Shown here: positions 8,107 through 39,942 of the stretch, piece after piece
How positions within the stretch are numbered: the first letter of the stretch is position 1
Layout of the letters: every line of letters begins with the position of its first letter
From: Streptomyces caniferus
GTDB lineage: Bacteria; Actinomycetota; Actinomycetes; Streptomycetales; Streptomycetaceae
Direction of reading: 5' to 3'
Assembly: GCF_009811555.1 (NCBI RefSeq)
Contig: NZ_BLIN01000005.1
Location: 1,187,501 to 1,251,500, forward strand
DNA: 64,000 nt
Made by a program: the position numbers and the translations under genes
Notes under the pieces: model-generated
What the model saw: the letters and a program-made list of their open reading frames with translations, nothing else
Told to the model about the DNA's origin: nothing
The model's database searches: none

Positions 8107-8952
8107 ATGCCCAGACTTGCTGCCGCGCTGCGCGGCCTCGCCGCCGCTGCCGCCGCGCTGATCGCCGTCGCCGCCGTCCCTTCGGATGCGGCAGCGGGCA
8201 CCGCCCCGCACCGCCCGTCACCGTCGTCGCATCCGTCCCACGACCCCAAGGCGCCCAGGGAGTTCGTCGCGCTGCGGGACGTGGACCCCACGATCATCCA
8301 GGAGATGCGCTACGCCACCCCGCACGACTTCATGGGGGTGCCGGTGACCGGCTACCGGGCGCCGATGTGCCTGCTCACCCGGGACGCGGCACGGGCGTTG
8401 CACCGGGCGCAGCGCTCGTTCCTGCGCCGCGGGTACTCCCTCAAGGTCTACGACTGCTACCGGCCGCAGCGCGCGGTGGACCACTTCGTGCGCTGGGCCG
8501 AGGACTTGGGCGACCAGCGGATGAAGGCCGAGTTCTATCCGCGGGTCGACAAGTCGACGCTGTTCCGGGACGGCTATATCGCGGAGAAGTCCGGGCACAG
8601 CCGGGGCAGCACCCTCGATCTGACGCTGGTGCGGCTGCCGGCCCTGCCCACCCGGCCGTACGTCCCCGGGGAGCCACTGTCGTCGTGCTACGGCCCGAAG
8701 GCGGCCCGTTTCCCGGACAACGGGCTGGACATGGGAACCGGCTTCGACTGTTTCGACACCCTGGCGCACACCCTCGACCCGCGGATCAAGGGCACGCAGC
8801 GGGCGCACCGGCTGCTGCTGAAGGACGGCATGGAGCGCGCCGGATTCGTCAATTACCCCTACGAGTGGTGGCACTACACCTTCACGCCGGAGACGTTTCC
8901 GGACACCTACTTCGACTTCCCGGTTGCCCGGCGGTCGCTCGTCCGGCACTGA
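8107..8952 (+). CDS. Secreted VanX-like D-Ala-D-Ala dipeptidase (M15D)
   Basis: This 281-residue zinc peptidase starts with a Sec signal (MPRLAAALRG, then an Ala-rich core ending near residue 30), so the enzyme is exported. The M15D motifs are complete: Arg119 in YDCYRPQRAV, zinc ligands His164 and Asp171 in SGHSRGSTLDL, catalytic Glu253 and zinc ligand His256 in YEWWHYTF. Exported members trim D-Ala-D-Ala dipeptides during wall turnover. No VanH/VanA ligase genes are nearby, so this is not by itself a vancomycin-resistance gene. It stands alone after the GH31 gene, and its last 71 bases overlap the convergent PurA-like gene. Confidence 0.93.
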   Translation: MPRLAAALRGLAAAAAALIAVAAVPSDAAAGTAPHRPSPSSHPSHDPKAPREFVALRDVDPTIIQEMRYATPHDFMGVPVTGYRAPMCLLTRDAARALHRAQRSFLRRGYSLKVYDCYRPQRAVDHFVRWAEDLGDQRMKAEFYPRVDKSTLFRDGYIAEKSGHSRGSTLDLTLVRLPALPTRPYVPGEPLSSCYGPKAARFPDNGLDMGTGFDCFDTLAHTLDPRIKGTQRAHRLLLKDGMERAGFVNYPYEWWHYTFTPETFPDTYFDFPVARRSLVRH

Positions 8953-10243
8953 CCGGCCACGTCGTCGACGGCCCGTCCGGCGGGCCTGTCTTGTCCGCCG
9001 CGGTCGGTCCGCAGGAGGTCAGGAGCACCGGGGCGGACAAGGCGTCGGAGAGGGCGTCGGTCCAGTCGCGCGGGTCGCTGCCGGGCGTCTGCCAGCGGTC
9101 CGGGCGGGCGGTCAGCAGTCGCTCGGTGAGGGCCTGCTGACGGCGGAGGTCGCCCGGTCGCGCGGCCGGGATGCGGTCCATGGGGCCGTCCGGGGTGCGG
9201 TAGCCGCGGGCGAGGCGCAGCGCGGGGTGGCGGGCCGGCGCGTCGAGGTGGGTGACGGCGAGACCGTCCACTCCCCCGCAGGCCGCGACGGCGTAGGCGT
9301 GCGCGGGGGCGTCGAAGTGGCCCGCGCGGAAGCCTCCTTGCCAGCGGCCGTGGCCGTTGTGCGGCTCGGGGAGGGCGGCGGCCAGGGCGGGGTCCTCGGT
9401 GACGAGCGGGCCGGGACCGTGCCGCGTCGTATAGGTCCGTACGACGCCCAGCCGCAGCGCGGTGTGCGGCCGGCCGGCCTCGGCGAGGAGGGTTTCGGCG
9501 CCGTCGAAGGTGGTGGTGGACCAGGTGGTGTACGGGTGGAAGCCGTGCCACTCGTCCAGCAGGACGCCCTGGGCGCCTTCGAAGACGGCCGGCCCGCGGC
9601 GCAGCAGGCCGGGCAGATGGGACTCGTCGACGAGGGTGACGTGGTCGGCGAAGGCGGTGAAGGCGGCCGTGCAGGCGTCGACGGGCGGTGCGTCGAGCGG
9701 ACCGACGGCGGCGGTGAGGCGGTCGCGGAGCAGGGTGAGTTTGCGGCGCAGGGCCGTACGGGAGGTGCAGTCGCCGGCCGTGGGGGCGTCGGCGGGGTGG
9801 GCGAGGGCGTAGGCGGCGGTCTCGCCGATGCCCATGCCGCAGGAGCCGTGGCGGGCGGTGCCGCGGGCGCGCTCCCGCGCCCGGTTGGCGGCCGCGTGGT
9901 ACGGCGTGGTGAGGCGGGCGCGCCGGTCCACGGTGAGCAGCGCGAGCGGGTCCGGGACACCGAGCGAGGCGAGATGCCGGGCCTCGATGGCGAGCGCCGC
10001 CGGGTCCACCATCATCAGGCGGGACAGATGGGTGGGAATGCCGCTGAAGGTGCCGGAGCCGAACTGGGCGAAGGTGTGGTGGCGGCCGTCGGTGGTGACG
10101 ACGTTGTGGGCGGCCTGGGCGCCGCCGTTGAAGCGGATCACCGCCGAGACCGGCGCCGCGCCCGGGCGGGGGACGCAGAGCCGGTCGACGACGGTGCCCT
10201 TGCCGGCGTCGCCGTAGCCGAGGTCGACCACGATGGTGTGCAC
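8882..10243 (-). CDS. Divergent adenylosuccinate synthetase-like GTPase
   Basis: The 453-residue protein is a PurA-fold enzyme. The P-loop reads DLGYGDAGKGTVVD, keeping the catalytic Asp12 but with Ala for the usual Glu. The acid His is kept in AAHNVV and the IMP-site block in FEGAQGVLLDEWHG. The loop that binds aspartate in true PurA (TTGRRRRTG) is replaced by HGRWQGGFRAGHF. The PurA end motif is recognisable as LLTSCGPTAADKTG, followed by about 30 extra residues overlapping the convergent dipeptidase gene. The GTG at 10243 follows AAAGAGGAA; an upstream GTG at 10270 would overlap the vWA stop by four bases. As last gene of the Nudix/pseudokinase/vWA operon it probably makes a modified nucleotide or ligates a non-standard substrate rather than serving purine synthesis. 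Confidence 0.85.
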   Translation of the reverse strand: MHTIVVDLGYGDAGKGTVVDRLCVPRPGAAPVSAVIRFNGGAQAAHNVVTTDGRHHTFAQFGSGTFSGIPTHLSRLMMVDPAALAIEARHLASLGVPDPLALLTVDRRARLTTPYHAAANRARERARGTARHGSCGMGIGETAAYALAHPADAPTAGDCTSRTALRRKLTLLRDRLTAAVGPLDAPPVDACTAAFTAFADHVTLVDESHLPGLLRRGPAVFEGAQGVLLDEWHGFHPYTTWSTTTFDGAETLLAEAGRPHTALRLGVVRTYTTRHGPGPLVTEDPALAAALPEPHNGHGRWQGGFRAGHFDAPAHAYAVAACGGVDGLAVTHLDAPARHPALRLARGYRTPDGPMDRIPAARPGDLRRQQALTERLLTARPDRWQTPGSDPRDWTDALSDALSAPVLLTSCGPTAADKTGPPDGPSTTWPVSAGRATAGQPGSRSRCPETSPA

Positions 10244-10266
10244 GGAGGGTTCCTCTTTCCGCAGGG

Positions 10267-11265
10267 TCACAGCCGGGTGGTGCCACCGGGGCCGGGGGTG
10301 CCGACGGTGTCGATCAGCGGCGCCGTGGAGTGCGCGACGGTGCCCCGCCCGCGGCCGAGGGTGGCCAGCGCCTTGCCGACGGTGCCGCCCGCGTCGGAGC
10401 CGATGTCGGCGAGGTCGTCGAGTCCGGCGGCGAGGTCGATGGCCTCCTCGCCGAGGCCGACGGTCAGGGCGAGGGTTTCGCAGACCGCGCCGAGGTCGTC
10501 GAGTTCGATGACGTTCTGGCCGAGGAGCTTGCGCCAGGTGCCCAGGACGGCGGCGTTGCCGACGTGGGTGGCACCGGCCGGGACGATGAAGTAGACATCG
10601 AACTTCCGCTGCACCTCGGCGAGGATCGAGGGCAGGGGGATGTCCTCGGCGAGGTCGTCGCCGAAGACCGCACGGACCTCGCGGGCCTTGACCTTCCCGT
10701 AGGGCATCTCGTCGCCGATGAGGAAGAGGTAGCCGCGGCGGCCGCGCTTCTCGTGGCAGTCGATGCTGGTGTGGCGTGCCATGGCGTAGAGGGCGAGTTC
10801 GTACGACTCGGTCATCTGGCCGCCTCCGCCGCCTTCCAGGAGGAAGTTGCCGAGGTCGTCGTCCATGCGGTTGTCGGACTCGAACTGTCCGATCTGGAGC
10901 GGCACCCGGTCGCAGGTGGCGTCGCCGACGGCTCCGAAGAGGATCTGCGGGTGCTCGACGTACCCCTTGCGCAGCAGCAGGCCGAACAGCTCGGGAAGCT
11001 TGGTCTGCAGCGCCCGGGGCACCGCACGCATCGATCCGGTGACGTCGAAGAGGACGGCGAGGGCCAGCGAGGCGGGGTGTTCGTCGGAGTCCCGGCTCTC
11101 GCGGGTGGTGAGGCCCTTCGGGTCGAGGGAGGCGTGTGCGGTCCAGGTGTGGCGCGGGGACGAGGTGGTGACACGGTCGCTGTAGTCGAAGGCGCTGGTG
11201 CCGGCGGCGTCGCGGTAGTGCGCCGCGGCGCCGTAGACATCGGTGGACCAGGTTCCGCTGCCCAT
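10267..11265 (-). CDS. von Willebrand factor A domain protein
   Basis: The 332-residue cytoplasmic protein carries a vWA fold starting near residue 66. The metal-ion-dependent adhesion site is DVTGSM (Asp74), a DxT/SxS variant that should hold a divalent cation and mediate protein contact. Further blocks are FGAVGDATCD and YLFLIGDEMPYG. The N-terminal 65 residues (WSTDVYGAAAHYRD) look unique to the family. A Gly-rich LLEGGGGGQMTESYELAL loop contributes the second MIDAS element. The ATG at 11265 follows AGGGGGAT. It lies 103 bp after the pseudokinase gene and directly before the PurA-like gene, so a scaffold or chaperone-like role in this system is likely; the exact partner is unknown. Confidence 0.88.
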   Translation of the reverse strand: MGSGTWSTDVYGAAAHYRDAAGTSAFDYSDRVTTSSPRHTWTAHASLDPKGLTTRESRDSDEHPASLALAVLFDVTGSMRAVPRALQTKLPELFGLLLRKGYVEHPQILFGAVGDATCDRVPLQIGQFESDNRMDDDLGNFLLEGGGGGQMTESYELALYAMARHTSIDCHEKRGRRGYLFLIGDEMPYGKVKAREVRAVFGDDLAEDIPLPSILAEVQRKFDVYFIVPAGATHVGNAAVLGTWRKLLGQNVIELDDLGAVCETLALTVGLGEEAIDLAAGLDDLADIGSDAGGTVGKALATLGRGRGTVAHSTAPLIDTVGTPGPGGTTRL

Positions 11266-11368
11266 GGTGGATCCCCCTGTGTGGTGGGCGGGTCGGGTGG
11301 TGGAGTGAGGTGCGGCGCGCTCCCGTACGGGGCGGCGCGCTCGGTACTGCCTGCGGAGGCGGTGCGGC

Positions 11369-12418
11369 CTACGGATGCGGTGCGGGCATCGTGGACGGGC
11401 GGAAGGTGCGGGGCCCGTAGAGGCGGTCGAGGAGTGCGTCCAGCTCGGCCAGCAACTGCCAGGCGTCGTGCGGACGGCGGGCCTCGGCCGGCAGGGTGCA
11501 GCCGCGCAGGAAGGCCCGCATCGGCTTCGGGGTGCGCGCCCCCATGAGGGTGGCCATGGTGTGGGAGGCGAGGTGGATGTCGGTGGCCTCGGTCGCCGGG
11601 CGGCGGCCGGTCACCTCGGGCGGATAGGCGGCGCGGTGGCGTTCGACGAGCGCGGGGACGCGGTCGCCGGGGGCCGTGCTGTAGCACCAGTCGACGAGGA
11701 CCAGGCCGTGCAGCCCGGGGTGGACGAGGACGTGTTCGGGCAGGACGGCGCCGTGCACCCGGCCGGCGCGGTGCGCCCAGCCGAGCGCCGCCAGCAGCCT
11801 GCGCCACATCCAGGCGGCATCGCGCGGGTCGAGTCCGCCCGGGTGGGCGTCATGGACCTCGGCGAGCGTGTGGAAACCGTCCGACGGTACGAGGGCGTTG
11901 ACCCGGCGTTCGCCGCCGGTGTCCGGGTCGCGGTGGCGGAAGGACTCCAGCAGCCGGGGCGCGTAGGCACGGTGGCGCGGGTCGCCGTGCCGCGCCAGCC
12001 GGTCGAGGGTCCGGGCCTCGCGCTCCATGAGGTCGTTGTCGGTGACCGTGCGCGGGATCTTCAGCAGCGCGCGGTGACGGGTGCCGTCCTCCTCGTACGT
12101 CGCCTCGCGGAGCACCGCGAGGTCGCCGGTGGTGAGGGTCGCGCCGAGGGTGTACGTGCGGCGGCGGGTGGTCAGGGTCGGGCGGGCGGCGGCGGTGTGC
12201 TGCTGCCAGAGGGCGTCGAGGCGGGCGAACTCGGCCTCGGCGTCCGGGCGTTCGCCGGGCGGTGCGGTGTCGGGGTGCAGCAGCCGGGCGAGCCGGCGGT
12301 GGGTCCGGACGGCCGCCGCGTGGTCGGCGGGGAAGAGGTCCGCGGGCCGGCGGGCCGCGGCCAGTGCGGCGCGGGCGGCGGCACGGGTGTGCGGGGCGTC
12401 CGCGGCCATGGTGGTCAT
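11369..12418 (-). CDS. J-domain/protein-kinase-like fusion, probable pseudokinase
   Basis: The protein is 349 residues. Residues about 12-75 resemble a J-domain core, with the HPD tripeptide at 48-50 in RRLARLLHPD. From about residue 95 a protein-kinase-like fold follows: Lys120 in ALLKIP (VAIK position), Glu132 or Glu134 in the helix-C position, and Asp243 in LVDWCYS replacing DFG. The catalytic loop HRDxKxxN is degraded to HGAVLPEHV, so the general-base Asp is missing and phosphotransfer is doubtful. The stop of the Nudix gene and this ATG overlap as ATGA, so the two are translationally coupled. A sensor or scaffold that recruits Hsp70 to the vWA/PurA-like partners is one reading. Confidence 0.82.
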   Translation of the reverse strand: MTTMAADAPHTRAAARAALAAARRPADLFPADHAAAVRTHRRLARLLHPDTAPPGERPDAEAEFARLDALWQQHTAAARPTLTTRRRTYTLGATLTTGDLAVLREATYEEDGTRHRALLKIPRTVTDNDLMEREARTLDRLARHGDPRHRAYAPRLLESFRHRDPDTGGERRVNALVPSDGFHTLAEVHDAHPGGLDPRDAAWMWRRLLAALGWAHRAGRVHGAVLPEHVLVHPGLHGLVLVDWCYSTAPGDRVPALVERHRAAYPPEVTGRRPATEATDIHLASHTMATLMGARTPKPMRAFLRGCTLPAEARRPHDAWQLLAELDALLDRLYGPRTFRPSTMPAPHP

Positions 12419-13395
12419 CGCACGCTCTCCTCCCGGTCGGGGCGCAGCAGCGCCGGATGCAGCAGGCGGGCGTCGCCCGCACGGTAGAGACGAGCGCGCG
12501 GACCGCCGCGGGCTCCCCCGCGGGCCGCCGTCGCGCCGGTGGATTCGACGAACCCGGGCACCGAGAGCACCTTGCGGTGGAAGTTCCCCGCGTGCAGCGG
12601 GCTGCCCCAGATGGATTCGTAGACGCCGCGGAGCTCGACGACGGTGAATTCCTCCGCGAGGAACGCCGTGGCCAGCGGGGTGTACTCGATCTTCGCGCGG
12701 GCGCGGTCGAGTCCGTCGGCGACGATCGCGGCATGGTCGAAGGCGAGCGGCAGAAGCGCCTGCGGACCGGGGCCGTCCTCCGCCGTCGCGTCGCCGACGG
12801 GCCGGGGCGCGGAATCACCCCCGTCGATCCCGCGCCCCGGGCCCTGCTCTGAGGGACGCGGCCGGGCCGCGTCCGGTTCGACGGAAGTCCGCGGAGTCAC
12901 CCTTTCGGGTTCCCGCGCCTCCGTACGGCCCCCGAGATCCAGCGCGGCGACCGGGACCCAGGCCGCGGCCGAGGCGTCGCCGCCGCCGCGGGCCTCGGGG
13001 AGGTCGGGTGCGAAGGCGAGGTAGGCGACGGTGACGACGGGCATCCGCGGATCGCGGCCGGGATCGCCGTAGGAGCCGAGCTGTTCGAGGTGGACGCGTT
13101 CCAGTTGCGTGGCGTCCAGGCCGGTCTCCTCGGCGAGTTCGCGGGCCGCGGCCGCGTCGAGCGACTCCCGGCCGGCCTGGACGAAGCCGCCCGGCAGCGC
13201 CCAGGCGCCCTGGAAGGGGTGGCCGCCGCGCTCGACGAGCAGGACGTGCAGGGCCCCGGCGCGCAGCGTCAGCGCGACCACGTCCACGGTCACGGCGATG
13301 GCCGGGAACTCCCGCGGGTCGTAGGCCGCGAGGAACTCGCTGTCCTCCTGGCTCCGCGCGGCGCCGCTCGCGTTGCCCTGCCGGTCCGTGTCCAC
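12415..13395 (-). CDS. Nudix-domain winged-helix regulator (NrtR-like)
   Basis: The 326-residue protein has an N-terminal Nudix domain (about residues 25-165), with an intact helix core RELAEETGL, and a C-terminal winged-helix region from about 225 (FLAEEFTVVELRGVYESIWG, HAGNFHRKVL). This is the NrtR layout, in which ADP-ribose or a related nucleotide binds the Nudix domain and controls DNA binding. A variable Pro/Arg-rich insert of about 60 residues separates the domains. The GTG at 13395 was chosen because GGAGGGG lies 5 bases upstream. A perfect palindrome at 13431-13445 lies just before it, suggesting autoregulation of the four-gene operon. The ligand is not known. Confidence 0.85.
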   Translation of the reverse strand: MDTDRQGNASGAARSQEDSEFLAAYDPREFPAIAVTVDVVALTLRAGALHVLLVERGGHPFQGAWALPGGFVQAGRESLDAAAARELAEETGLDATQLERVHLEQLGSYGDPGRDPRMPVVTVAYLAFAPDLPEARGGGDASAAAWVPVAALDLGGRTEAREPERVTPRTSVEPDAARPRPSEQGPGRGIDGGDSAPRPVGDATAEDGPGPQALLPLAFDHAAIVADGLDRARAKIEYTPLATAFLAEEFTVVELRGVYESIWGSPLHAGNFHRKVLSVPGFVESTGATAARGGARGGPRARLYRAGDARLLHPALLRPDREESVR

Positions 13396-13430
13396 GGCCA
13401 CCCCTCCCACGTCGTTCTCACTTTGAGTCT

Positions 13431-13445
13431 TTCTCGGAACGAGAA
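13431..13445. promoter_or_regulatory. Candidate operator of the Nudix regulator
   Basis: TTCTCGGAACGAGAA is a perfect palindrome (6-base arms, 3-base centre) 36 bp before the Nudix gene. A further GTTCTC copy stands at 13412-13417. Position and symmetry suggest an autoregulatory site; no binding data. Confidence 0.45.
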
Positions 13446-13529
13446 CAACATAGCACCGGACGTCGGCGGCGTACAGGGCGAGGGGGCGGCAGCGGGACGG
13501 GCCGGGGGGCGCCTTCGTGAGGCGGCGGC

Positions 13530-17879: not shown

Positions 17880-19907
17880 GTGACGCGCACGCCAAGGCCG
17901 GTGGTGCCGGGGTGGTTCGATCAGGAGGCGGCGGATTTCCGTCTGCTGGGGACGCGCTGCCGGGCCTGCGGTGCGGTGTTCTTCCCCCGGGAGGACGCCT
18001 TCTGCCGCAACCCCGTGTGCGGGGGCGAGGAGCTGGTGGAGGTACGCCTGTCCCGGCGCGGCACGGTCTGGTCGCACACGGACGCGCGCTACCGTCCGCC
18101 CGCCCCCTACGTCTCCGACCCGGAGGCCGAGTGGCGGCCGTACACCCTGGTCGCCGTGGAGCTGGCGGAGGAGCGGATGGTGGTCCTCGGACAGGCCGCG
18201 CCCGGCGTCCGCGCCGCGGATCTCGCCGTGGGCACGGAGGTCGAGCTGGTGCCCGGGACCCTCGCCGAGGACGACCGGCACGTCTGGACGACGTGGCATT
18301 GGCGGCCTTGCGGGCGGGAGGACTGCGGGGTAGCGGAGTCTGCGCCTCCGGCTGGGTGCGAGGCCACGCACGATGCTCCGCGGGCCGTGGCCGCCGCCGT
18401 AGCCGATGCCGATGCCGATGGCGATGGCGATGCCGATGCCGATGCCGATGCCGATGGCGATGGCGATGGCGATGCCGCGGGGACCGTAACCGTCGGCCCG
18501 CGGGCGGAAACCGCATCACTACACCCGCCCACCCCCCGAAGGGGGGTGGGCGGCGGGGAAAAAACCAACGGCGCGGGTGGGCGGCGGGTAGGGGGGCGCA
18601 CAGCAAGCGCCACCCCCGGGGACATGGGCACCGCCTCCGGAAGCGCGTACACCACGTCCGGCACCACGGCAACCGGCCCCGGCCGCCTGCGAACCGCCCC
18701 CGGCAACATGGGCACCGCCCCCCGCGACGTGGCCGTCCTCGGCGCCGGTATGCATCCCTGGGGCAAATGGGGGCGCAGCTTCGTCGAGTACGGCACGAAG
18801 GCGGCCAGGGCGGCGCTCGCGGACGCCGGCCTCGACTGGTGCGCCGTGCAGAGCATCGTCGGCGCGGACACGGTGCGCGGCGGCTACCCCGGCTATGTGG
18901 CGGGCGCGACCTTCGCCAAGGCGCTGGGCTGGCAGGGCGCGCGGGTGACCAGCGTCTATGCGGCCTGTGCCTCCGGCGCGCAGGCCATCGGCACCGCGCG
19001 GGCGCAGATCCTCTCGGGGATGGCGGACGTGGCGCTGGTGGTGGGCGCCGACGCCGCGCCCAAGGGCTTCTTCGCCCCGGCGGGCGGCGACCGGCCCGAC
19101 GATCCCGACTGGTTGCGGTTCCGGGTACTGGGCGCCACCAACCCGGCGTACTTCGGGCTGTACGCGCGCCGCCGGATGGCTCTGTACGGCGATACGGCCG
19201 ACGACTTCGCGCAGGTGAAGGTGAAGAACTCGGCGGCGGGCGCGGCCAATCCGTACGCCCGCTACCGCAAGCCGGTCACCGCGCGGGAGGTCGCCGCTTC
19301 GGCGGTGGTCTGCGATCCGCTCCGGCTGCTGGACATCTGCGCCACCTCCGACGGCGCCGCGGCACTGGTCCTGACCAGCATGGGCTTCGCACGCCGGCAC
19401 GGCGTCGCGGATCCGGTCCGGATCCGCGCGGTCTCTACGGCCACCCCGCGCTATCCCCGGACCGTGCTGGACCTGCCGGATATCGCCACCGACTCCGCGG
19501 CCGCCGTACCGGAGCCGGAGACCGGCTTCCGGGCGTCGATCGCGCTGACCGCCTACGAGGAGGCCGGGATCGGACCCGAGGACCTCTCCCTGGCCGAGGT
19601 CTACGACCTCTCCACCGCGCTGGAGCTGGAGTGGTACGAGGACCTGGGGCTGTGCGGCGCCGGCGAGGGGGCGAAGCTGCTGCGGGACGGGGCGACGGCG
19701 CTGGGCGGGCGGCTGCCGGTGAACGCCAGCGGGGGCCTGGCCTCCTTCGGCGAGGCGGTACCGGCCCAGGCCATCGCCCAGGTCTGCGAGCTGACCTGGC
19801 AGTTGCGGGGACGGGCGGCCGGGCGGCAGGTGGCGGACGCCCGGGTGGGAATGACCGCCAACCAAGGGCTCTTCGGGCACGGGTCGGCTGTGGTCGCCGT
19901 GCGGTGA
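17880..19907 (+). CDS. OB-fold (DUF35)/SCP-x thiolase fusion with repeat linker
   Basis: The 675-residue reading frame joins two domains usually encoded separately. Residues about 10-145 are a DUF35-type acyl-CoA-binding domain: a rubredoxin-like zinc ribbon (CRACGAVFF, CRNPVCGG) and an OB fold. From about residue 280 a lipid-transfer/SCP-x thiolase follows, with Cys363 in ACASGAQAIG, NASGGLASFGEA and GHGSAVV. The linker (about 146-279) is low complexity and includes an Asp-Ala/Asp-Gly tract from a hexanucleotide repeat. Such pairs act in sterol or acyl side-chain beta-oxidation. The GTG at 17880 follows GGGGAGGG. A terminator-like hairpin inside the linker and ATG codons near 18709 leave open that two genes were recently fused or are still separately started. 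Confidence 0.82.
   Translation: MTRTPRPVVPGWFDQEAADFRLLGTRCRACGAVFFPREDAFCRNPVCGGEELVEVRLSRRGTVWSHTDARYRPPAPYVSDPEAEWRPYTLVAVELAEERMVVLGQAAPGVRAADLAVGTEVELVPGTLAEDDRHVWTTWHWRPCGREDCGVAESAPPAGCEATHDAPRAVAAAVADADADGDGDADADADADGDGDGDAAGTVTVGPRAETASLHPPTPRRGVGGGEKTNGAGGRRVGGRTASATPGDMGTASGSAYTTSGTTATGPGRLRTAPGNMGTAPRDVAVLGAGMHPWGKWGRSFVEYGTKAARAALADAGLDWCAVQSIVGADTVRGGYPGYVAGATFAKALGWQGARVTSVYAACASGAQAIGTARAQILSGMADVALVVGADAAPKGFFAPAGGDRPDDPDWLRFRVLGATNPAYFGLYARRRMALYGDTADDFAQVKVKNSAAGAANPYARYRKPVTAREVAASAVVCDPLRLLDICATSDGAAALVLTSMGFARRHGVADPVRIRAVSTATPRYPRTVLDLPDIATDSAAAVPEPETGFRASIALTAYEEAGIGPEDLSLAEVYDLSTALELEWYEDLGLCGAGEGAKLLRDGATALGGRLPVNASGGLASFGEAVPAQAIAQVCELTWQLRGRAAGRQVADARVGMTANQGLFGHGSAVVAVR
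18402..18476 (+). repeat. GATGCC/GATGGC hexanucleotide microsatellite
   Basis: About twelve in-frame units of GATGCC or GATGGC encode alternating Asp-Ala and Asp-Gly. Being a multiple of three, copy-number change alters linker length without shifting frame. Confidence 0.9.
18526..18552. repeat. Terminator-like hairpin inside the fusion reading frame
   Basis: Perfect 12-base arms (18526-18537, 18541-18552) with a GAA loop are followed by an A run at 18559-18564. The form is that of an intergenic terminator, which is odd inside a coding frame. Confidence 0.7.
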
Positions 19908-19992
19908 GCGCCGTGCGGTGAGCGCCGTGCGGTGAGCGCCGTGCGGTGAGCGCCGTGCGGTGAGCGCCGTGCGGTGAGCGCCGTGCGGTGAA
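19895..19992 (+). repeat. 14-bp minisatellite at the thiolase 3' end
   Basis: Seven head-to-tail copies of CGCCGTGCGGTGAG occur, the last with one change. The first copy includes the last sense codons and the TGA stop at 19905-19907; the others extend downstream. Confidence 0.95.
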
Positions 19993-32144: not shown

Positions 32145-35100
32145 TCACCCGCCGGCCGGGTCCGCCGTCTCCTCTGCGGCCGTCTCCTCCGGGCGGCGGT
32201 ACATCCGCGTCGCGGTGATCTGCCCGTGCACCGCCTCGCCGGACGGGTCCGGCTGCGGCAGGCCCGGCCGCAGATGCTCCTCGACGCTGATGTACTTCAG
32301 CCCGGCCCGCAGGTCCGCGTCGTTGCGCAGCCGGATCACCAGCGGGAACTCCGCGAGCGCCGTGGTGTCGAAGAGGCCGGTGGTGTACAGCAGCTGGACG
32401 CCCAGAGCGTCGGCGACGGCGCGCTGGAGCTCCAGCAGATAGGTCGCGTTGGCACGGCCGATGGGGTTGTCCAGGAACAGCGTGCCGGCGTGCCGCTGCT
32501 TGTCGCGGCCCCGGTCGTTGCTGCGCAGCGCCGCCATCGTGCAGTACAGCGCGATGGCGGCGGTCAGCAGCTGGCCGCCGGAGAAGACATCGCCCATCTG
32601 CCCGACCGGCACCCGCTCGGCGCGCAGCACCGCGTCCGGCTTGAGGATCTCCACGGCCACCCCGCGCGGCTGCAGCGCCGCGGCGACCCCGCGCAGCAGC
32701 AGGGACATCCCGTCCCGCCGCAGGTCGCTGTTCTTCCTGACGGCCGCGCTCGTCGCCTCGTCGATCACCTCGCCGAGCCGCTCGGTGAGTGTGGCCTGGT
32801 CGGGGTCCTCGAAGCGGATGCGCAGGAACTCCTGCCCCGACCACTCCCCCAGCCCCTCGGGCAGCCGCGACAGCCGCTGGGCGGAGCGCAGCGTCGTCAG
32901 CGACGATTCGACCAGCCCGCGCAGCCGGTCGACGATGGAGTCGCGGTTGCGCTCCAGCTGTTCCAGCTCGTCGGTGAGCACCCGCAGCCGGGGCGCGAAG
33001 GCCTCCGCCCACTTCGCGGCATGGTCCGGCAGCGCCGAGGCGGGCAGTTCGCGGATCTGCTGCCGGGCGGGGGTACGGACCTGTTCGTAGCGGGTGGAGT
33101 TGGCATGCCGTACGAGGATGTCGCTCGCCTCGCGCACGGCGGACTCCGCGGTGGACAGGTCGGCGGCGCAGCCGCGCAGCGAGCGGCGGGACTCGGCGGC
33201 CGCCTGCCGGGCGTCCTCCACCCGGCCGGCGTACGGCTCGATCGGCCCGTCCGCCGCGTCCTCGGCGTCCTGGTGGTCGCGGAGCAGATCGCGCAGCAGG
33301 GCGGCGGTCTCGTCGAAGCCGCCCGCGGCGTCCTCGGCGGCGCGGTGGCCGTGCAGCAGCTCCTCGTGCCGGTCGCGGGCGGCCTGCAACGCCTCGGCGG
33401 CAGTGGCCAGTTCGCCCGAGGCGGTGCGCAGCAGCTCCTTGGCGCGGTCGGCGTCCTTGGGCACCAGCTCGTCCGGCAGCTCGGTGTGTGCCTCGCCGTC
33501 GGTGGGCGCGAGGCGCTCGGCCTCGCCGCGCAGCCGGCCGAGCTGTTCACTGGCGGCCGAGGCGCGGGTCTCCAGCATCTGCACCAACGATTCGGCGCGC
33601 GTCGCGGCGGCCTGCCGGGACGGGCCGTCGGCCGCGTCCGGGCTCTCCAGCAGCGCCTCGGCGCGGGTGCGGACCTTGTTGGTGAGGCGGTTCAGCTCGG
33701 CCAGGGCGGCGCTCTCGTCGCCCTCGGCGCGGGCCTGCTCGGCACGCAGGTCGGCACCGACGCCGACCTGCTCGTAGAGCTGGGAGGCGGCGCGGTAGGC
33801 CTCGCGCAGCGCCGGCAGCGAGGTGCTCGTGCCCTCCGGGGCCTCTCCCACCTCGTCCGGTACGCCGGCGATCTCGGCGCGCTCGGCGCGCAGTGCACGG
33901 GCGGTGCGCCGGGCGTCGTCGGCGGCGCGCTGGGTAGCCCTGCGGTCCTCGTCGGCGGCTCGCGCACGGTCCACGCACTCCTCGGCGCGGGCCTCGAACT
34001 CGGCCGCCTCATCGGCGAGTTCCCGCATCCGGGACTGCCAGGAGGCCCGCTCCCGCAGCCGGTGGGCGAGCCCAGCCAGCAGATCGGCGGCGCGGCGGGC
34101 GCGCTGAGCACTCTCCTGGCGCTCGTCCCGCACCCGGGTGGCCTCGGCCGCGACCTCCTCGGTCTCGGCGCGAGCGGCGCGGGCCTCGGCCAGCTCGGCG
34201 GCGGCCTCGTCGGCTGCCGTACGGGTCTCGTCCGCGGCGGCGGTCAGTTCGGCGAGCCGGCCGGCCGGGCAGCCCGCACGCCACGAGCCGAGGCGGGCGG
34301 CCAGCGCACGGTCCCCGGCGAGCCGGGCGGCCAGCGCCCGGATCTCCTCGTCGCGCTCTATGGCGCGCGCCCGCAGCGCCTGGCGCTCCTCGTCGGCGGC
34401 GGACTCGTCGTGCATCGCAGGGTTCGGCGGGACGAGGAAGACGCCGGACTCCCGCTCGTCGGGGGCGGGCGTGGGCGCGAGCAGCGCGGCGGCGGTACCG
34501 ACCGCGACGGCCGACCGCGGCAGCAGCGCGGCCTGGGCGAGCACCTCGCGGGCCCGCGCATGGGTCTCCGGGTCGGTGATGATCACGCCGTCGACGAGCT
34601 CGGGGCGGGCGGCGAGGACCCGGGTGTGGTCGGCCGGATCGACGGACTGGGCGAGGTAACGCCAGCCGGGCAGCGCGGGGACGCCGTGCTCACCGAGGTA
34701 CTCCACGGCGGCCAGCACATCGGGCCCCGGGGGCAGCAGTCCGCCGTCGCCCAGCGCGCCGAGGATCCGCGCGTCGTCGGCGGCGGCCGTGCGCAGGTCG
34801 AACAGCTGGCGCTCGGCGGCGGTGACGCCCTCCTCCAACAGCTCGTGCAGCTCGTCGGCGTTGCGGTCCAGCTCCTCGGCGGTCAGCGGACCGGCGCCGG
34901 GACGGCGGGCGGCGGGCCGGTCGGTGTCCGGCGTGGCCGTACGGGGGCCGGGCACACCGAGGGCCTTGGCCTCGGACTGCGGGAGACCCAGGAGGTCGGC
35001 GAGCCGCTGCTCGGCGCCGATCGACTCGGCGGCCCGGTGCTCGGCGTCGTGGGCGCGCTCGGCGGCCTGCGCGGCGTCCTCGGCGCGAGCCGCCGCCAGT

Positions 35101-36830
35101 TCGGCGGCGGAGTGCCGCGCTGCGGCCTCGCGGGCGCGGTCGGTGGCCTGCCGGGCGGTCTCCCGGGCCGAGTCCCAGGCCTCGACGGCGGTCTTCTCGG
35201 CGTCCGAGGCGGCGAGTGCGGCACGGGCCGGGTCGGCGTCGGGGGCGCTGTCGTCCAGCCAGCCCGCCCGGACGGCCTCGGCGGTCTCCTCGGCCACCTC
35301 TGTCAGCCGCTGCTTGAGGTGGTCGGCCTCGCTGCGGGCGCGCTGGGCGTGGGTGGCGGCCGTGGTGGCGTCGCGGTGCGCGGATTCCCCGGCCTCCTGG
35401 AGGGCGGCGGAGCGTTCCTCCTCCTCGTTGGCGACCCGCTCACCGGCCTCGGCCGCGGCGTGCAGGGCACGTACGAGGTCGGCGGCCGCGGTGGCCCGGG
35501 CGGCGAGCGCGGGGGCGGCGTCCCGCTCGGCCTCGCGGATGGCGGCGGCGACCCGCGCGGAGCGGTCGGCGGCGGCGCGGTGCCGCAGCGCGGTCTCGGC
35601 GGCCTGCCAGGCGCTGTGCAGCGTACGGGCGTCGTTCAGTTCACGGCGCTGGGCGGCGGCGCCCTTCTCCGCGGCGGCCAGCGCCAGCGAGGCGTGCCGG
35701 TAGGCGAGTTCGGCGGAGACCAGCGAGCGGCGCTCCCGGACGCGCTCGGCGTCGGTGACGCGGTGGGCCGCGGCGGCGACCTGTTCGGCCAGCTCGGCGG
35801 CGCGGCCGCGCTCCTCGGTGCCGCGGGCGTGGAGCCGCTGGGCGAGGCCGCGGGTGCGGCGCTCGGCTCCGGCGTGCACCTCGCGGGCGCGTTCACGCTG
35901 CTCGGCGGCGTCGGCGATACGGGAGAGCAGGTCGAGGGAGCCGGCGGTGAAGTCCCGCTCGGCGGTGAGCTCGGCACGCCTGCCGAGCTTGTGGGCGAAG
36001 CCGTGGACGAGGTCGGCGAGGCCGTCGGTGTCGCGGGTGTCCGTGACGGCGCGCAGCAGCAGGTCGGTGAAGTCCGAGTCGTTCTTGACCGCGAAGAGGC
36101 CAGCGGCCTCGCCCTCGTCGGCGTTCATCTCCCGCTGGTACCGGAAGAGTTCCGGGTCCAGGCCCAGCTCGCCGAGGTGTACGTTCCAGCGCTCGTGGGT
36201 CTCCTCCCAGACCACGTCCAGATTGGGGTAGTTCTTCCCGGCCTCGGTGAGGACGTCGCGGAAGCCCTTCATCGTGCGCCGGCGGCCCTGGGCCCCGGAA
36301 CTTCCCTCGCCGCTCTCCTGACGCGGGCGGACGATGGTGGCCTCGGCGACGGGGAGGGAGTCCAGGCTCATCCCCGGGCCGGGCCGGAAGCTGTACCAGG
36401 CCTCGGCGAACTTCCGGGGGTCGTTGGAGACCTGCCGGCCGCGCCATTCGCTGACCTTGCCGACGACCACGCTCTCGCCGGTGAGGACGTGCTGCCACTC
36501 CAGGGCGACATGGCCGCAGTCGTCGGCGAGCAGGAATTTGCGCAGCACGCCGGAGCTGGCGCCGCCGAGGGTGTTGCGGTGGCCGGGCAGCATCACCGAG
36601 AAGATCAGCTTGAGGAGGACGGACTTGCCGCCGCCGTTCTCCAGGAAGAGCACGCCGGCGGGCGCCGGGCGGCGGGGCGGGCCGACCGGTTCGTCCTCGA
36701 AAAAGTCCGCCTGGGCCGGGGCCGGTTGGGGTACGGGCGCACCGACTCCGCGCAGGTCCAGCACGGTGTCGGCGTAGCGCGCACCGGCGGGCCCGATGGA
36801 GTAGAGGCGGACCCGGGACAGCTCGTACAT
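32145..36830 (-). CDS. SMC/MukB-like ATPase of a condensin-like complex
   Basis: The 1561-residue protein has an SMC layout. The Walker A is LFLENGGGKSVLLKL (GGGKS at 66-70). Two very long Ala/Glu/Arg-rich coiled coils flank a globular hinge at about 690-790 (PALPGWRYLAQSVDP). The signature VFSGGQLLTAAIALY is near 1418, and a Walker B near 1450 reads LFLDNPIG, with Asn where most SMC ATPases have the catalytic Glu. It is the third gene after a kleisin-like and a KITE-like gene, the JetA-JetB-JetC/MksF-E-B order. It would entrap or extrude DNA. No JetD nuclease gene follows: the next gene downstream is convergent. Only a weak ribosome site precedes the ATG at 36830. Confidence 0.88.
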   Translation of the reverse strand: MYELSRVRLYSIGPAGARYADTVLDLRGVGAPVPQPAPAQADFFEDEPVGPPRRPAPAGVLFLENGGGKSVLLKLIFSVMLPGHRNTLGGASSGVLRKFLLADDCGHVALEWQHVLTGESVVVGKVSEWRGRQVSNDPRKFAEAWYSFRPGPGMSLDSLPVAEATIVRPRQESGEGSSGAQGRRRTMKGFRDVLTEAGKNYPNLDVVWEETHERWNVHLGELGLDPELFRYQREMNADEGEAAGLFAVKNDSDFTDLLLRAVTDTRDTDGLADLVHGFAHKLGRRAELTAERDFTAGSLDLLSRIADAAEQRERAREVHAGAERRTRGLAQRLHARGTEERGRAAELAEQVAAAAHRVTDAERVRERRSLVSAELAYRHASLALAAAEKGAAAQRRELNDARTLHSAWQAAETALRHRAAADRSARVAAAIREAERDAAPALAARATAAADLVRALHAAAEAGERVANEEEERSAALQEAGESAHRDATTAATHAQRARSEADHLKQRLTEVAEETAEAVRAGWLDDSAPDADPARAALAASDAEKTAVEAWDSARETARQATDRAREAAARHSAAELAAARAEDAAQAAERAHDAEHRAAESIGAEQRLADLLGLPQSEAKALGVPGPRTATPDTDRPAARRPGAGPLTAEELDRNADELHELLEEGVTAAERQLFDLRTAAADDARILGALGDGGLLPPGPDVLAAVEYLGEHGVPALPGWRYLAQSVDPADHTRVLAARPELVDGVIITDPETHARAREVLAQAALLPRSAVAVGTAAALLAPTPAPDERESGVFLVPPNPAMHDESAADEERQALRARAIERDEEIRALAARLAGDRALAARLGSWRAGCPAGRLAELTAAADETRTAADEAAAELAEARAARAETEEVAAEATRVRDERQESAQRARRAADLLAGLAHRLRERASWQSRMRELADEAAEFEARAEECVDRARAADEDRRATQRAADDARRTARALRAERAEIAGVPDEVGEAPEGTSTSLPALREAYRAASQLYEQVGVGADLRAEQARAEGDESAALAELNRLTNKVRTRAEALLESPDAADGPSRQAAATRAESLVQMLETRASAASEQLGRLRGEAERLAPTDGEAHTELPDELVPKDADRAKELLRTASGELATAAEALQAARDRHEELLHGHRAAEDAAGGFDETAALLRDLLRDHQDAEDAADGPIEPYAGRVEDARQAAAESRRSLRGCAADLSTAESAVREASDILVRHANSTRYEQVRTPARQQIRELPASALPDHAAKWAEAFAPRLRVLTDELEQLERNRDSIVDRLRGLVESSLTTLRSAQRLSRLPEGLGEWSGQEFLRIRFEDPDQATLTERLGEVIDEATSAAVRKNSDLRRDGMSLLLRGVAAALQPRGVAVEILKPDAVLRAERVPVGQMGDVFSGGQLLTAAIALYCTMAALRSNDRGRDKQRHAGTLFLDNPIGRANATYLLELQRAVADALGVQLLYTTGLFDTTALAEFPLVIRLRNDADLRAGLKYISVEEHLRPGLPQPDPSGEAVHGQITATRMYRRPEETAAEETADPAGG

Positions 36831-38237: not shown

Positions 38238-39761
38238 TCACGCCACCTCCGAACGGTCCGCGGCCATCCCGGCGGAGTCCAGCAGGGCGGTGCCGACGAT
38301 GAGGTCGGCGCCGCCGAACTCGGGGTCGGTCAGCTCCGTGCCGTCGTCGACGGCGAACAGCAGCTGCTGCTCCCCCTGGCGGTAGGCGGTACCGACCGGC
38401 GGGCTGGCGGCGTGGACCGCCAACAGGGCGACGAGGTACGGGAGTTCGGGATCGCCGCGGCGGGCCTCGGCGAGCAGTCCGGAGAGCCTGCGGGGCGCGT
38501 CGGCGGGCAGGTCGAGCAGCGCCATCGCGGCGTCGAGCTGGGCCTCGCTGAAGCGGCTGTCGTCGGGCGTCGTCACCAGATCGGGCTCGGGCATCTCCGC
38601 GCCGAGGTGCTCGCGCTCCACGGGCGGGGTGAGCAGCACCTCGACGAGATCGCCGACCCGGACCGCGGAGGGCGTGCGCAGGCCCGTGCCGTGGGCGAAG
38701 AACGCGTCGGTGACGCGGATGGCCTGTTCGGCGGGGAGCGGCAGCAGGGGGGCGACGAGCTGGCCGTACAGGTCGAGTCCGGAGCGGGCGACGGGGGTTG
38801 CGAAGGCCTGCCGGTCCTGTTCGGCGCGGAAGAGCGGGCCGGCCTCCAGCAGCCGGGACTGGAGCTGGGTGTGGCGGCGGATGCAGTCCTTGACGATGTC
38901 GACGAGCTCGGCGGCGCGGCGCTTGTGCTCGGGCTCCTCGGTCTCGTCGCGGGCCTTGCGGATGTTCGTGAGGATGGCGTTCTCGTGGCGGTAGCGGTCC
39001 GCGACGTGGTCCAGCGCCTCGTTGATCATGTCCGGGACGGTCTCCAGCCAGTCCACGGCGCGGACGTTGCGGCGGGTGGCGTCCAGGGTCCTGCGCAGCG
39101 TCTCGGCGTACTGCACGGTGCGGTAGCGGGCCTGCTCGGCGGCGAGCTGGGCGTCGGCGAGCCGGCCGCGGCTGATCAGCACCTCCAGCTTGACCTCGGC
39201 GGCGATCTGGGCGCTGGTGACGTCGGTGTCGAGCGCGCCGACCAGGACGTTGACCGCTTCGTCGGTGGCCCGCAGGAAGACCGTGCCGCCGGTGCCGGGG
39301 ACCTCCTCGATCAGCTTGAAGTCGTAGTCGCGGCGGACATAGGCGCCTTCGGTGTCGAAGGTGCCGTAGACGGCCCGGAAGCCGCGGTCCACGCTGCCGA
39401 CGTTGATGAGGTTCTCCAGCACCCAGCGGGCCACCCGCTCGTGCTCGCCCGTGGAACGGCGGGGAGCCTGGGCGGCGACCCGCGGGAGCACCTTCGCCAC
39501 TATCTCTTCGTGGTCGGCGCCGGTGTCGAAGTCCATGTTGAGCGTGACGAGGTCGATGACGGCGAGCGCCACCTCCGCCATGGCGTAGACGCCGTACTCG
39601 CCCGCGAGGTTGGCCTTGCGCACATCGAGGTCGTGCAGCGGCGCGGTGCACGCGAGGGCACGCAGCCGACGGGCCAGGCCTTCGTCGGCGGCCGGGCCCG
39701 GCGCGGGCCGGTTCGGCCCGTTGAGCTGGGGCGCAGCGGCCCCCGGGGCGGAAAAAGTCAC
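38238..39761 (-). CDS. Kleisin-like subunit (MksF/JetA-like), probably leaderless
   Basis: The 507-residue protein is mostly helical: an N-terminal winged-helix-like part (LAGEYGVYAMAEVALAVIDLVTLNMDFDTG), a long coiled middle (SRGRLADAQLAAEQARYRTVQYAETLRRTLDATRR, split by WLETVPDMINEALDHVADRY) and a C-terminal wHTH-like region. With a KITE-like and an SMC gene downstream it fits the kleisin of a MukF/MksF/JetA complex. The GTG at 39761 lies 7 bases after a TACTCT -10 box, so transcription and translation may start together. The longer start at 39818 would put the promoter inside the gene and has poor codon use. Confidence 0.75.
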   Translation of the reverse strand: MTFSAPGAAAPQLNGPNRPAPGPAADEGLARRLRALACTAPLHDLDVRKANLAGEYGVYAMAEVALAVIDLVTLNMDFDTGADHEEIVAKVLPRVAAQAPRRSTGEHERVARWVLENLINVGSVDRGFRAVYGTFDTEGAYVRRDYDFKLIEEVPGTGGTVFLRATDEAVNVLVGALDTDVTSAQIAAEVKLEVLISRGRLADAQLAAEQARYRTVQYAETLRRTLDATRRNVRAVDWLETVPDMINEALDHVADRYRHENAILTNIRKARDETEEPEHKRRAAELVDIVKDCIRRHTQLQSRLLEAGPLFRAEQDRQAFATPVARSGLDLYGQLVAPLLPLPAEQAIRVTDAFFAHGTGLRTPSAVRVGDLVEVLLTPPVEREHLGAEMPEPDLVTTPDDSRFSEAQLDAAMALLDLPADAPRRLSGLLAEARRGDPELPYLVALLAVHAASPPVGTAYRQGEQQLLFAVDDGTELTDPEFGGADLIVGTALLDSAGMAADRSEVA

Positions 39762-39768
39762 GTCGCAC

Positions 39769-39791
39769 AGAGTAGGCGCTCGCACTGACAA
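39769..39791 (-). promoter_or_regulatory. PafBC/RecA-NDp-type DNA-damage promoter
   Basis: Read on the minus strand: TTGTCAGTG, then 8 bases, then TACTCT. This fits the full tTGTCRgtg-N8-TAnnnT consensus of RecA-independent damage-inducible promoters. The -10 box ends 7 bases before the GTG start of the kleisin-like gene. Confidence 0.7.
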
Positions 39792-39942
39792 CGGACGAAA
39801 CGGCGCGGATCCGCTCATGGGTGGAACCGCAGGTGGATCCGTTGACGGACCACTCGCCCGATCAGCGCGTCAGTCTACGGCGTCGCCCGCGGCGGCGTAC
39901 CGCGAGGTCCCGTGGCCGGTGCGCCGGAGCCCGTACCGGTGC

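Follow-up and report, generated by a model that had tools for sequence, protein, structure and literature searches.

The 64,000-nucleotide stretch of Streptomyces caniferus DNA studied here (contig NZ_BLIN01000005.1, positions 1,187,501 to 1,251,500; hereafter the window, with positions counted from its first letter) carries a set of four genes on the minus strand. From 5′ to 3′ they encode a Nudix regulator of the NrtR type, a J-domain pseudokinase, a von Willebrand factor A (vWA) protein and a relative of adenylosuccinate synthetase (PurA-like), and the set spans from a predicted operator at 13415–13445 down to 8882. A preliminary description of this DNA, made from its letters and open reading frames, had placed the four genes here, and we confirmed them in the sequence and the reading frames. 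In the loci that we compared, the vWA and PurA-like genes form a near-obligate pair, which is the core of the set, and the pseudokinase is its usual third member. The PurA-like protein is annotated in databases as adenylosuccinate synthetase; judged by its residues and family scores, it is very probably not one. Tentatively, and as one reading together with the mechanism proposed below, we take the operon to be the chromosomal version, under repressor control, of a mobile gene set common in large phages.

Co-occurrence of the four genes and their spread

We collected 52 cellular loci by scanning genome contigs with a single vWA protein, a sample that is biased to near relatives. The loci are found in Streptomycetaceae, Nocardiopsis and its kin, Thermomonosporaceae, Frankiaceae, Micromonospora, Chloroflexota and a contig labelled as a Parcubacteria metagenome-assembled genome (L058), whose gene content suggests a phage. 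Among the 52 loci, a PurA-like gene was found in 49, a pseudokinase gene in 45, a Nudix gene in 45 and all four genes in 39 (tblastn, E ≤ 1e-4). All of these 39 loci have the genes in identical order and strand, within 3.6–4.8 kb, so the co-conservation of the four families that the preliminary description had proposed as a check is indeed observed. Three loci lack a PurA-like gene: two of them (L059 and L060) end within 140 bases after the vWA gene, and the third (L054) has PurA-like remnants only. The set is also found on plasmids: those of Rhodococcus and Tsukamurella have pseudokinase, vWA and PurA-like genes followed by an annotated Nudix gene, and plasmids of Agrobacterium vitis and Acetobacter carry a related version.

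The set is rare among the genomes drawn for comparison. A vWA match at E < 1e-100 was observed in two out of 296 genomes of the phylum (one is the window's own genome and the other has an adjacent pseudokinase; a third match is a 91-residue stretch at 7e-5), and in one out of 200 genomes of the genus, again the window's own. No fifth recurrent module gene emerged from a crude clustering of the neighbours of 62 loci, with crude gene calls, identities assigned by eye and no hidden Markov model (HMM) annotation. Neighbours resembling a glycerol kinase, an alpha-glucosidase, a dipeptidase and a sensor kinase (by eye) were considered for this place and set aside, as they look like within-family synteny.

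The preliminary description had suggested looking for the set in actinobacterial genomes. Actinobacteria do carry it, but this scope is too narrow: the set is widespread in large phages. A tblastn search of 50,697 phage records gave 208 vWA, 212 PurA-like (a few of which are perhaps other PurA relatives) and 190 pseudokinase matches: 189 of each gene are in Mycobacterium phages, plus one Mycolicibacterium phage, and vWA and PurA-like genes are also found in 10 Rhizobium and six Vibrio phages. For example, the order in Mycobacterium phage Sebata is kinase (gp260), vWA (gp261), gp262 and PurA-like (gp263). Members of the set are annotated in phage records as kinase, hypothetical protein, '2-aminooxy adenylosuccinate synthetase' (a label also used in PHROGs) or 'PurA-like adenylosuccinate synthetase'.

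A profile scan of IMG/VR yielded 46 vWA loci (32 on contigs of 120–440 kb), with a PurA-like gene in 43, a pseudokinase gene in 35 and a Nudix regulator gene in four. The reverse scan, starting from PurA-like proteins, kept 80 out of 86 confirmed loci, and of these 76 have a vWA gene, 62 a pseudokinase gene and eight a Nudix gene. The four loci without a vWA gene (L142, L144, L170 and L171) are cut short just where it would be expected: only 3–990 bases separate the start of the PurA-like match from the contig end on that side. Loci L077–L122 and L124–L203 are called viral here by the IMG/VR classification, and some of them are near-duplicates (e.g. L088/L109, L106/L107 and L113/L114). One frame family is shared by L058 (11206–12276) and L077; its member in L058 is 357 amino acids long, looks like a homing-type nuclease by eye and lies directly before the PurA-like gene.

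Among 101 vWA proteins placed in a tree (58 from cells or plasmids and 43 viral; a quick, midpoint-rooted tree with long branches), the label changes between cell and virus eight times, and three of these changes are forced by well-supported branches. The tree includes 39 of the 46 virus loci: L084, L096, L100, L119, L121 and L122 gave no clustered full frame, and L120 was removed as partial. The cellular sets are most simply explained by several captures from phages, and we infer that cells took the set from phages in this way. The Nudix gene, with its few virus loci, and the J protein, whose gene is lost from five cellular loci, are additions to the vWA and PurA-like core.

The PurA-like, vWA and pseudokinase proteins

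The PurA-like gene (8882–10243, minus strand) encodes a putative ligase of 453 amino acids that belongs to the PurA fold and family (Pfam Adenylsucc_synt, PF00709; E 1.1e-53, 182.9 bits against a cut-off of 27). Its scores are below the cut-offs of the curated purA equivalog families in NCBIfam (132.2 against 402 bits for NF002223 and 100.6 against 395.55 for TIGR00184), and a second, canonical PurA is encoded elsewhere in the genome (610 bits, as compared with 183 for the PurA-like protein). We compared the residues of 97 PurA-like sequences (54 cellular, including that of the window, and 43 viral) with those of E. coli PurA and of the genome's own PurA. This count covers 39 of the 46 vWA virus loci (L086, L096, L100 and L119–L122 had no clustered full frame and were left out), and the cellular L054 was dropped.

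The family has in common with E. coli PurA (purA, PF00709) the fold, the catalytic residues Asp13 (96 out of 97 sequences), Lys16, His41 and Gln224 (97 each) and also Thr239 (97); Arg272 is likewise kept in all 97. Other positions are substituted: Asn38 by Gln in 96 sequences (Asn in one), Thr129 by Cys in 91 (Thr in two) and Val273 by His in all 97; at the position of Lys331 none has Lys, 72 have His and 20 have Cys; and Arg143 is found in two, in a loosely aligned column. The loop Thr300-Thr301-Gly-Arg303 is replaced by a loop with one residue fewer, usually reading aromatic-Gln-Gly, with Gln in all 97 sequences, the Arg303 equivalent in only two and a strict pattern, [WFYH]Q[GQ]xx[RK], in 85. 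Two alignments differ by one place in the loop gap, so that assignments of individual loop positions vary with the register, whereas the TTGR loop is lost in either case. We take this loop of E. coli PurA (numbered without the first Met) to bind aspartate, and Asn38, Thr129 and Arg143 to bind the phosphate of inosine monophosphate (IMP). By these roles, the PurA-like protein would keep the phosphoryl-transfer machinery and have rebuilt pockets for aspartate, the IMP 5′-phosphate and guanine. It thus differs from PurA in the aspartate loop, the IMP-phosphate ligands and Lys331, all replaced, and in having a vWA gene as its partner.

The protein encoded by that partner gene (10267–11265, minus strand) has no Pfam match at E ≤ 1. 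It is placed among the vWA-domain proteins by a model with a Rossmann-like, integrin-I-like fold (predicted local distance difference test score, pLDDT, 82; Foldseek matches to integrin I domains with probability 1.00) and by the motif of a metal ion-dependent adhesion site (MIDAS), D74-V-T-G-S78, whose D-V-T-G-S is invariant in 26 out of 26 aligned relatives. It matches phrog_2971 (E 1.2e-73). At E ≤ 1e-3 it is matched by 6,330 proteins, not all of them necessarily of the same family, and no Pfam domain is found on any of the 120 matches listed. The nearest relatives are from Streptomyces inhibens, S. piniterrae, S. chattanoogensis, S. lydicus and S. natalensis.

The pseudokinase gene (11369–12418, minus strand) encodes a protein that is modelled as a kinase fold (pLDDT 92; Foldseek matches to PknB and Pim1 with probability 1.00) behind a J-like helical segment, and it matches phrog_3043 (E 2.8e-43). 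The J-like segment carries the HPD motif of J-domains, which is found in 29 out of 29 aligned members and is looser in a wider set (His in 71 and Asp in 75 out of 86 sequences); its Pfam DnaJ score, 14.7 bits, is below the cut-off of 27.8. In the kinase part, the protein of the window has the beta3 Lys (Lys120) and the alphaC Glu (Glu134), with the HRD Asp changed to Ala224 and the catalytic Asn to His229. The family shows the same pattern: among 86 sequences the beta3 Lys is kept in 83, the alphaC Glu in 82 and the DFG-type Asp in 69; the HRD Asp is found in two (84 are without it) and the catalytic Asn in six, its position being His in 78. The pair of HRD Asp and catalytic Asn that marks an active kinase is therefore not a property of the family in these 86 sequences. 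By its residues the protein is probably no canonical kinase, and it may still bind a nucleotide.

Operon layout, the Nudix regulator and its operator

The first gene of the operon (12415–13395, minus strand) encodes a protein with a Nudix domain (Pfam NUDIX, PF00293; E 1.1e-20) and an NrtR-type winged helix (NrtR_WHD, PF21906; E 2.2e-10), both over their cut-offs, in line with the type named by the preliminary description; its relatives in the PDB include 3gz5/3gz6 and AraR. The more likely start of this gene is GTG 13395, with GTG 13410 as a possible alternative: 13395 is preferred because GTG 13410 is only four bases off the operator and because GGGAGGGG precedes 13395.

The palindrome noted at the head of the operon by the preliminary description (13431–13445) is real, but it is the first half of a two-box tandem element at 13415–13445 (minus strand), in which TTCTC-N5-GAGAA (13431–13445) is followed at a 16-base period by ACTC-N5-GAGAA (13415–13428). 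The site fits the tandem pattern without mismatch, and shuffling the window gives an expectation of 0.00 such sites. When the whole 9.15-Mb genome was scanned with up to three mismatches, we found this site (in both readings) and only one other, which has three mismatches.

The element is conserved in front of related genes. In 46 upstream regions (of the window and of 45 Nudix orthologues of at least 45% identity), TTCTC-N5-GAGAA is matched exactly in 29 and with no more than one mismatch in 42, as compared with 0–3 of the 46 in 200 Markov-shuffled sets. Besides the window, 21 of the 52 genome-contig loci have the full tandem pattern without mismatch. One of the loci with a complete tandem (L039) has three mismatches in the count of upstream regions, where its frame start was set too far upstream. 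The tandem operator was not found, with up to four mismatches allowed, in 17 other loci (phage, plasmid and Chloroflexota loci and large-phage cassettes, some of which have a Nudix regulator of their own).

Directly upstream of the first box lies TATGTT (13447–13452, minus strand), and an alignment of the upstream regions has the string GTGcTAnGTT in its consensus. The conserved TAtGTT is a likely −10 element, with the boxes directly after it as for a repressor site; because of this position the boxes would cover the transcription start. That the Nudix protein regulates the operon through this predicted operator is well supported by the conservation of the site. Five out of 45 orthologues, of a Nocardiopsis type, have lost the Nudix catalytic motif and retain an operator with 0–2 mismatches; sensing is therefore favoured over hydrolysis as the function of the Nudix domain.

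At the junction of the Nudix and pseudokinase genes we confirmed the ATGA overlap (12415–12418) reported earlier. The pseudokinase and vWA genes are separated by 103 bases. For the PurA-like gene, a start within a GTGA junction at 10267–10270 had been suggested; this is probably wrong and was rejected in favour of GTG 10243, which lies 23 bases after the vWA stop, because many orthologues begin with a sequence like MHTIVVDLG, which is encoded there. The 3′ end of the PurA-like gene overlaps, tail to tail, a convergent plus-strand frame (dipeptidase-like by eye) by about 70 bases (8882–8952), and a similar neighbour is retained in several Streptomycetaceae loci.

Proposed role, alternatives and known systems

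Genes of nicotinamide adenine dinucleotide (NAD) salvage are found near the set in some phages. NrtR-type Nudix and NAMPT genes are interleaved with the vWA, PurA-like and pseudokinase genes in several large-phage loci; for example, the order in L094 is NrtR-type Nudix, vWA, a second Nudix protein (like a nicotinamide mononucleotide adenylyltransferase, NMNAT, by eye), NAMPT, PurA-like and pseudokinase. NAMPT genes are found in 10 of the 80 PurA-like virus loci. We analysed their distance in 50 of these 80 loci, those on contigs of at least 100 kb with the near-duplicates L137 and L196 left out. NAMPT is encoded on 13 of the 50 contigs, and in seven of these 13 it is within about 6 kb of the PurA-like gene (a locus of about 13 kb), where random placement would give 0.76 (P 2.4e-6; P 1.1e-5 after two near relatives were removed). 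An NAD synthase gene (Pfam, E 7.1e-42) at 12666–13409 of virus locus L119 lies near a divergent vWA/PurA-like pair, and a gene annotated as NADAR is found near a Vibrio phage copy.

In the mechanism that we propose, the PurA-like protein would retain the chemistry of adenylosuccinate synthetase, in which a nucleoside triphosphate (NTP) phosphorylates a purine-type carbonyl and a nitrogen nucleophile displaces the phosphate; its substrate would be a nucleotide other than that of PurA and its nucleophile would be other than aspartate, which would make it an NTP-dependent purine-nucleotide/amine ligase. The vWA protein would act with it through the Mg2+ site, the J-domain pseudokinase would be an adaptor that brings the substrate or a partner, and the Nudix repressor would leave the operator on binding a nucleotide related to NAD or adenosine diphosphate (ADP)-ribose. 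Production of the enzyme would follow a disturbance of NAD or nucleotide pools, for example during phage attack, and phages would use the same enzyme as one tool of NAD and nucleotide upkeep during infection. The preliminary description had inferred a nucleotide-sensing module that would make or consume a modified purine nucleotide under a vWA/J-domain scaffold, a view that our results support in part. Taken as a whole, this mechanism is possible rather than probable; that the set belongs to the contest between phages and bacteria over nucleotides or NAD is, we infer, probable. If the link to NAD holds, the set is an extra component in that contest.

Several observations weigh against this proposal. 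Three of the 46 vWA virus loci have no PurA-like gene (L100 ends 3 kb after the vWA gene, and L120 and L122 are partial vWA matches), and gene order is no proof of physical binding. The pseudokinase cannot be essential everywhere, because its gene is missing between the Nudix and vWA genes in five of the 52 cellular loci (L025, L026, L027, L032 and L033, of an Actinacidiphila type; it may lie elsewhere in these genomes) and was undetected in 18 of the 80 virus loci, four of which are cut or nearly so. The ligand of the Nudix protein could be a different one, since AraR, a factor of the NrtR family, controls arabinose use. The test of NAMPT distance is partly post hoc: without the four contigs that suggested it, three out of nine are close as compared with 0.56 expected, a modest result (P 0.014). 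In cellular loci, no NAMPT-, NMNAT- or NAD-synthase-like gene was found by tblastn at E ≤ 1e-5, except in the phage-like L058. The presence of NAMPT itself (13 out of 50 contigs) is not above the 33% of jumbo phages with NadV that PMC9503650 reports.

Other explanations start from the same residues. The PurA-like protein could be a small-molecule repair enzyme that re-aminates deaminated or damaged purine nucleotides (e.g. inosine di- or triphosphates, or inosine-containing dinucleotides), with the vWA protein only a regulatory subunit; phages would use it to undo a nucleotide-depleting defence and bacteria to recover from one. That the IMP-phosphate ligands and the aspartate loop are lost around a kept catalytic core fits another nucleotide with ammonia or a small amine, and NAMPT and NAD synthase neighbours occur in some phages, but the near-obligate vWA partner and the J-domain pseudokinase are left unexplained, and we consider this role unlikely. 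Protein purinylation, in which the J-domain and vWA partners present a target protein and the PurA-like protein joins a purine nucleotide to an amino group on that target, would account for the replacement of the amino-acid loop of PurA in 97 sequences and for the co-conservation of two potential protein-binding partners (J-domain and MIDAS). Metabolic ligases have turned into protein ligases before, PafA being the precedent. The altered pocket could equally well bind another small amine, however, and we rate purinylation improbable. A fuller version is rated lower again: a PurA-derived ligase that has swapped free aspartate for a protein partner and that, with the MIDAS vWA protein and the J-domain pseudokinase, would attach a purine nucleotide, possibly derived from NAD or ADP-ribose, to proteins. 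If this were true, the attachment would be an undescribed modification chemistry, traded between large phages and bacteria and, in actinobacteria, switched on by a repressor that senses NAD or ADP-ribose.

A pathway to a modified DNA precursor of the PurZ kind (2-aminoadenine type) is suggested by the frequent presence of the set in phages and by the '2-aminooxy adenylosuccinate synthetase' label of some phage records and of PHROGs; PurZ, the 2-aminoadenine synthase of phages, is likewise a phage-borne relative of PurA. Yet PurZ of phage phiVC8, the one PurZ compared, has the reverse residue pattern: it is without Asp13 and keeps the Thr-Thr of the loop and the equivalents of Asn38, Thr129 and Val273. 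This opposite pattern and the score against the PurZ profile (NF038379, 26.1 against 300 bits) led us to reject the identity with PurZ. The set is moreover found on bacterial chromosomes, and no DNA-polymerase-like gene was seen among the recurrent neighbours (by eye, with no HMM annotation); a pathway of this kind is very unlikely. We give hardly any credence to the reading that the protein is an ordinary PurA, a spare copy captured by an operon to which it is unrelated; the preliminary description had seen an ordinary PurA as fatal to its own proposal. The kept fold and catalytic core would agree with this reading, but the residues (Val273His and the loop Gln are fixed in 97 out of 97 sequences), NCBIfam scores that fall far short of the curated purA cut-offs and the presence of a separate PurA gene led us to reject it, and a vWA gene stands beside the PurA-like gene in each of the 76 virus loci with an intact upstream flank.

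All folds of the proposed NTP-dependent ligase system are known. Our literature searches found no published description of the gene set or of the enzyme subfamily, so that both are apparently undescribed, although an earlier description elsewhere is possible. NrtR, NadQ and AraR likewise combine a Nudix domain with NrtR_WHD and have a conserved operator heading an operon; here the operator is a tandem of CTC-N5-GAG boxes and, in actinobacteria, stands on this gene set rather than on NAD genes. In TerY-P/Ter stress systems a vWA protein is found with a kinase-like protein. The likeness of the set to these systems lies in this pair and in a PRTase_3 near a Rhizobium phage copy, whereas the kinase-like protein here is a pseudokinase with a J-domain. 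The kinship with Ter-type systems drawn in the preliminary description is unsupported, no Ter-like or phosphatase gene being seen among the recurrent neighbours (by eye). The PRTase_3, of a type linked to Ter systems, and a HIRAN-domain protein are encoded upstream of the vWA and PurA-like genes in Rhizobium phage RHph_TM2_3B (L009, 2590–3444 and 6679–6996).

The nearest published idea that we found is that of anti-ADP-ribosylation operons centred on an ADP-ribosylglycohydrolase, with a Nudix regulator and a vWA protein (PMC9503650). These systems likewise join a Nudix repressor and a vWA protein in one conflict-type operon, with a different core enzyme; the words 'adenylosuccinate' and 'PurA' are absent from the main text of that paper. 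The operon of the window has no ADP-ribosylglycohydrolase gene, and no such recurrent gene was seen in the crude clustering of 62 loci, whose neighbours were not annotated with HMMs. Phage NAD reconstitution (NAMPT/NadV, NadM and NARP1; PMC12774641 and PMC9503650) is related to the set by the NAMPT and NrtR-type Nudix genes inside some large-phage cassettes, and differs in that NAMPT is absent from the surroundings of most cassettes (it is present at 10 of the 80 loci).

The vWA protein stands for a large, almost unannotated family in large phages, common laboratory mycobacteriophages, plasmids and bacterial chromosomes. The residue pattern makes the substrate of the PurA-like protein a well-posed question, the unique operator makes the inducer findable, and Sebata on M. 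smegmatis offers a genetic system.

Elsewhere in the window, 19–26 kb from the head of the operon, PADLOC identified two Wadjet-type genes on the minus strand, one JetC3-like (32145–36830; 1408 bits) and one JetA3-like (38238–39818; 620 bits). The C-terminus of a JetC-like protein (by eye) was also seen near the operon in L025, L026, L028, L030, L032 and L033. These Wadjet-type neighbours lend weak support to a role in conflict between phages and bacteria. Two repeat arrays are found in coding frames of the window (named by eye): a GCCGAT hexanucleotide array of 12.7 copies at 18402–18477, which codes for a run of Asp, Ala and Gly in a fused OB-fold/thiolase-like frame, and a perfect 14-bp tandem repeat of 6.9 copies (CGCCGTGCGGTGAG) at 19895–19991, at the end of a thiolase-like frame.

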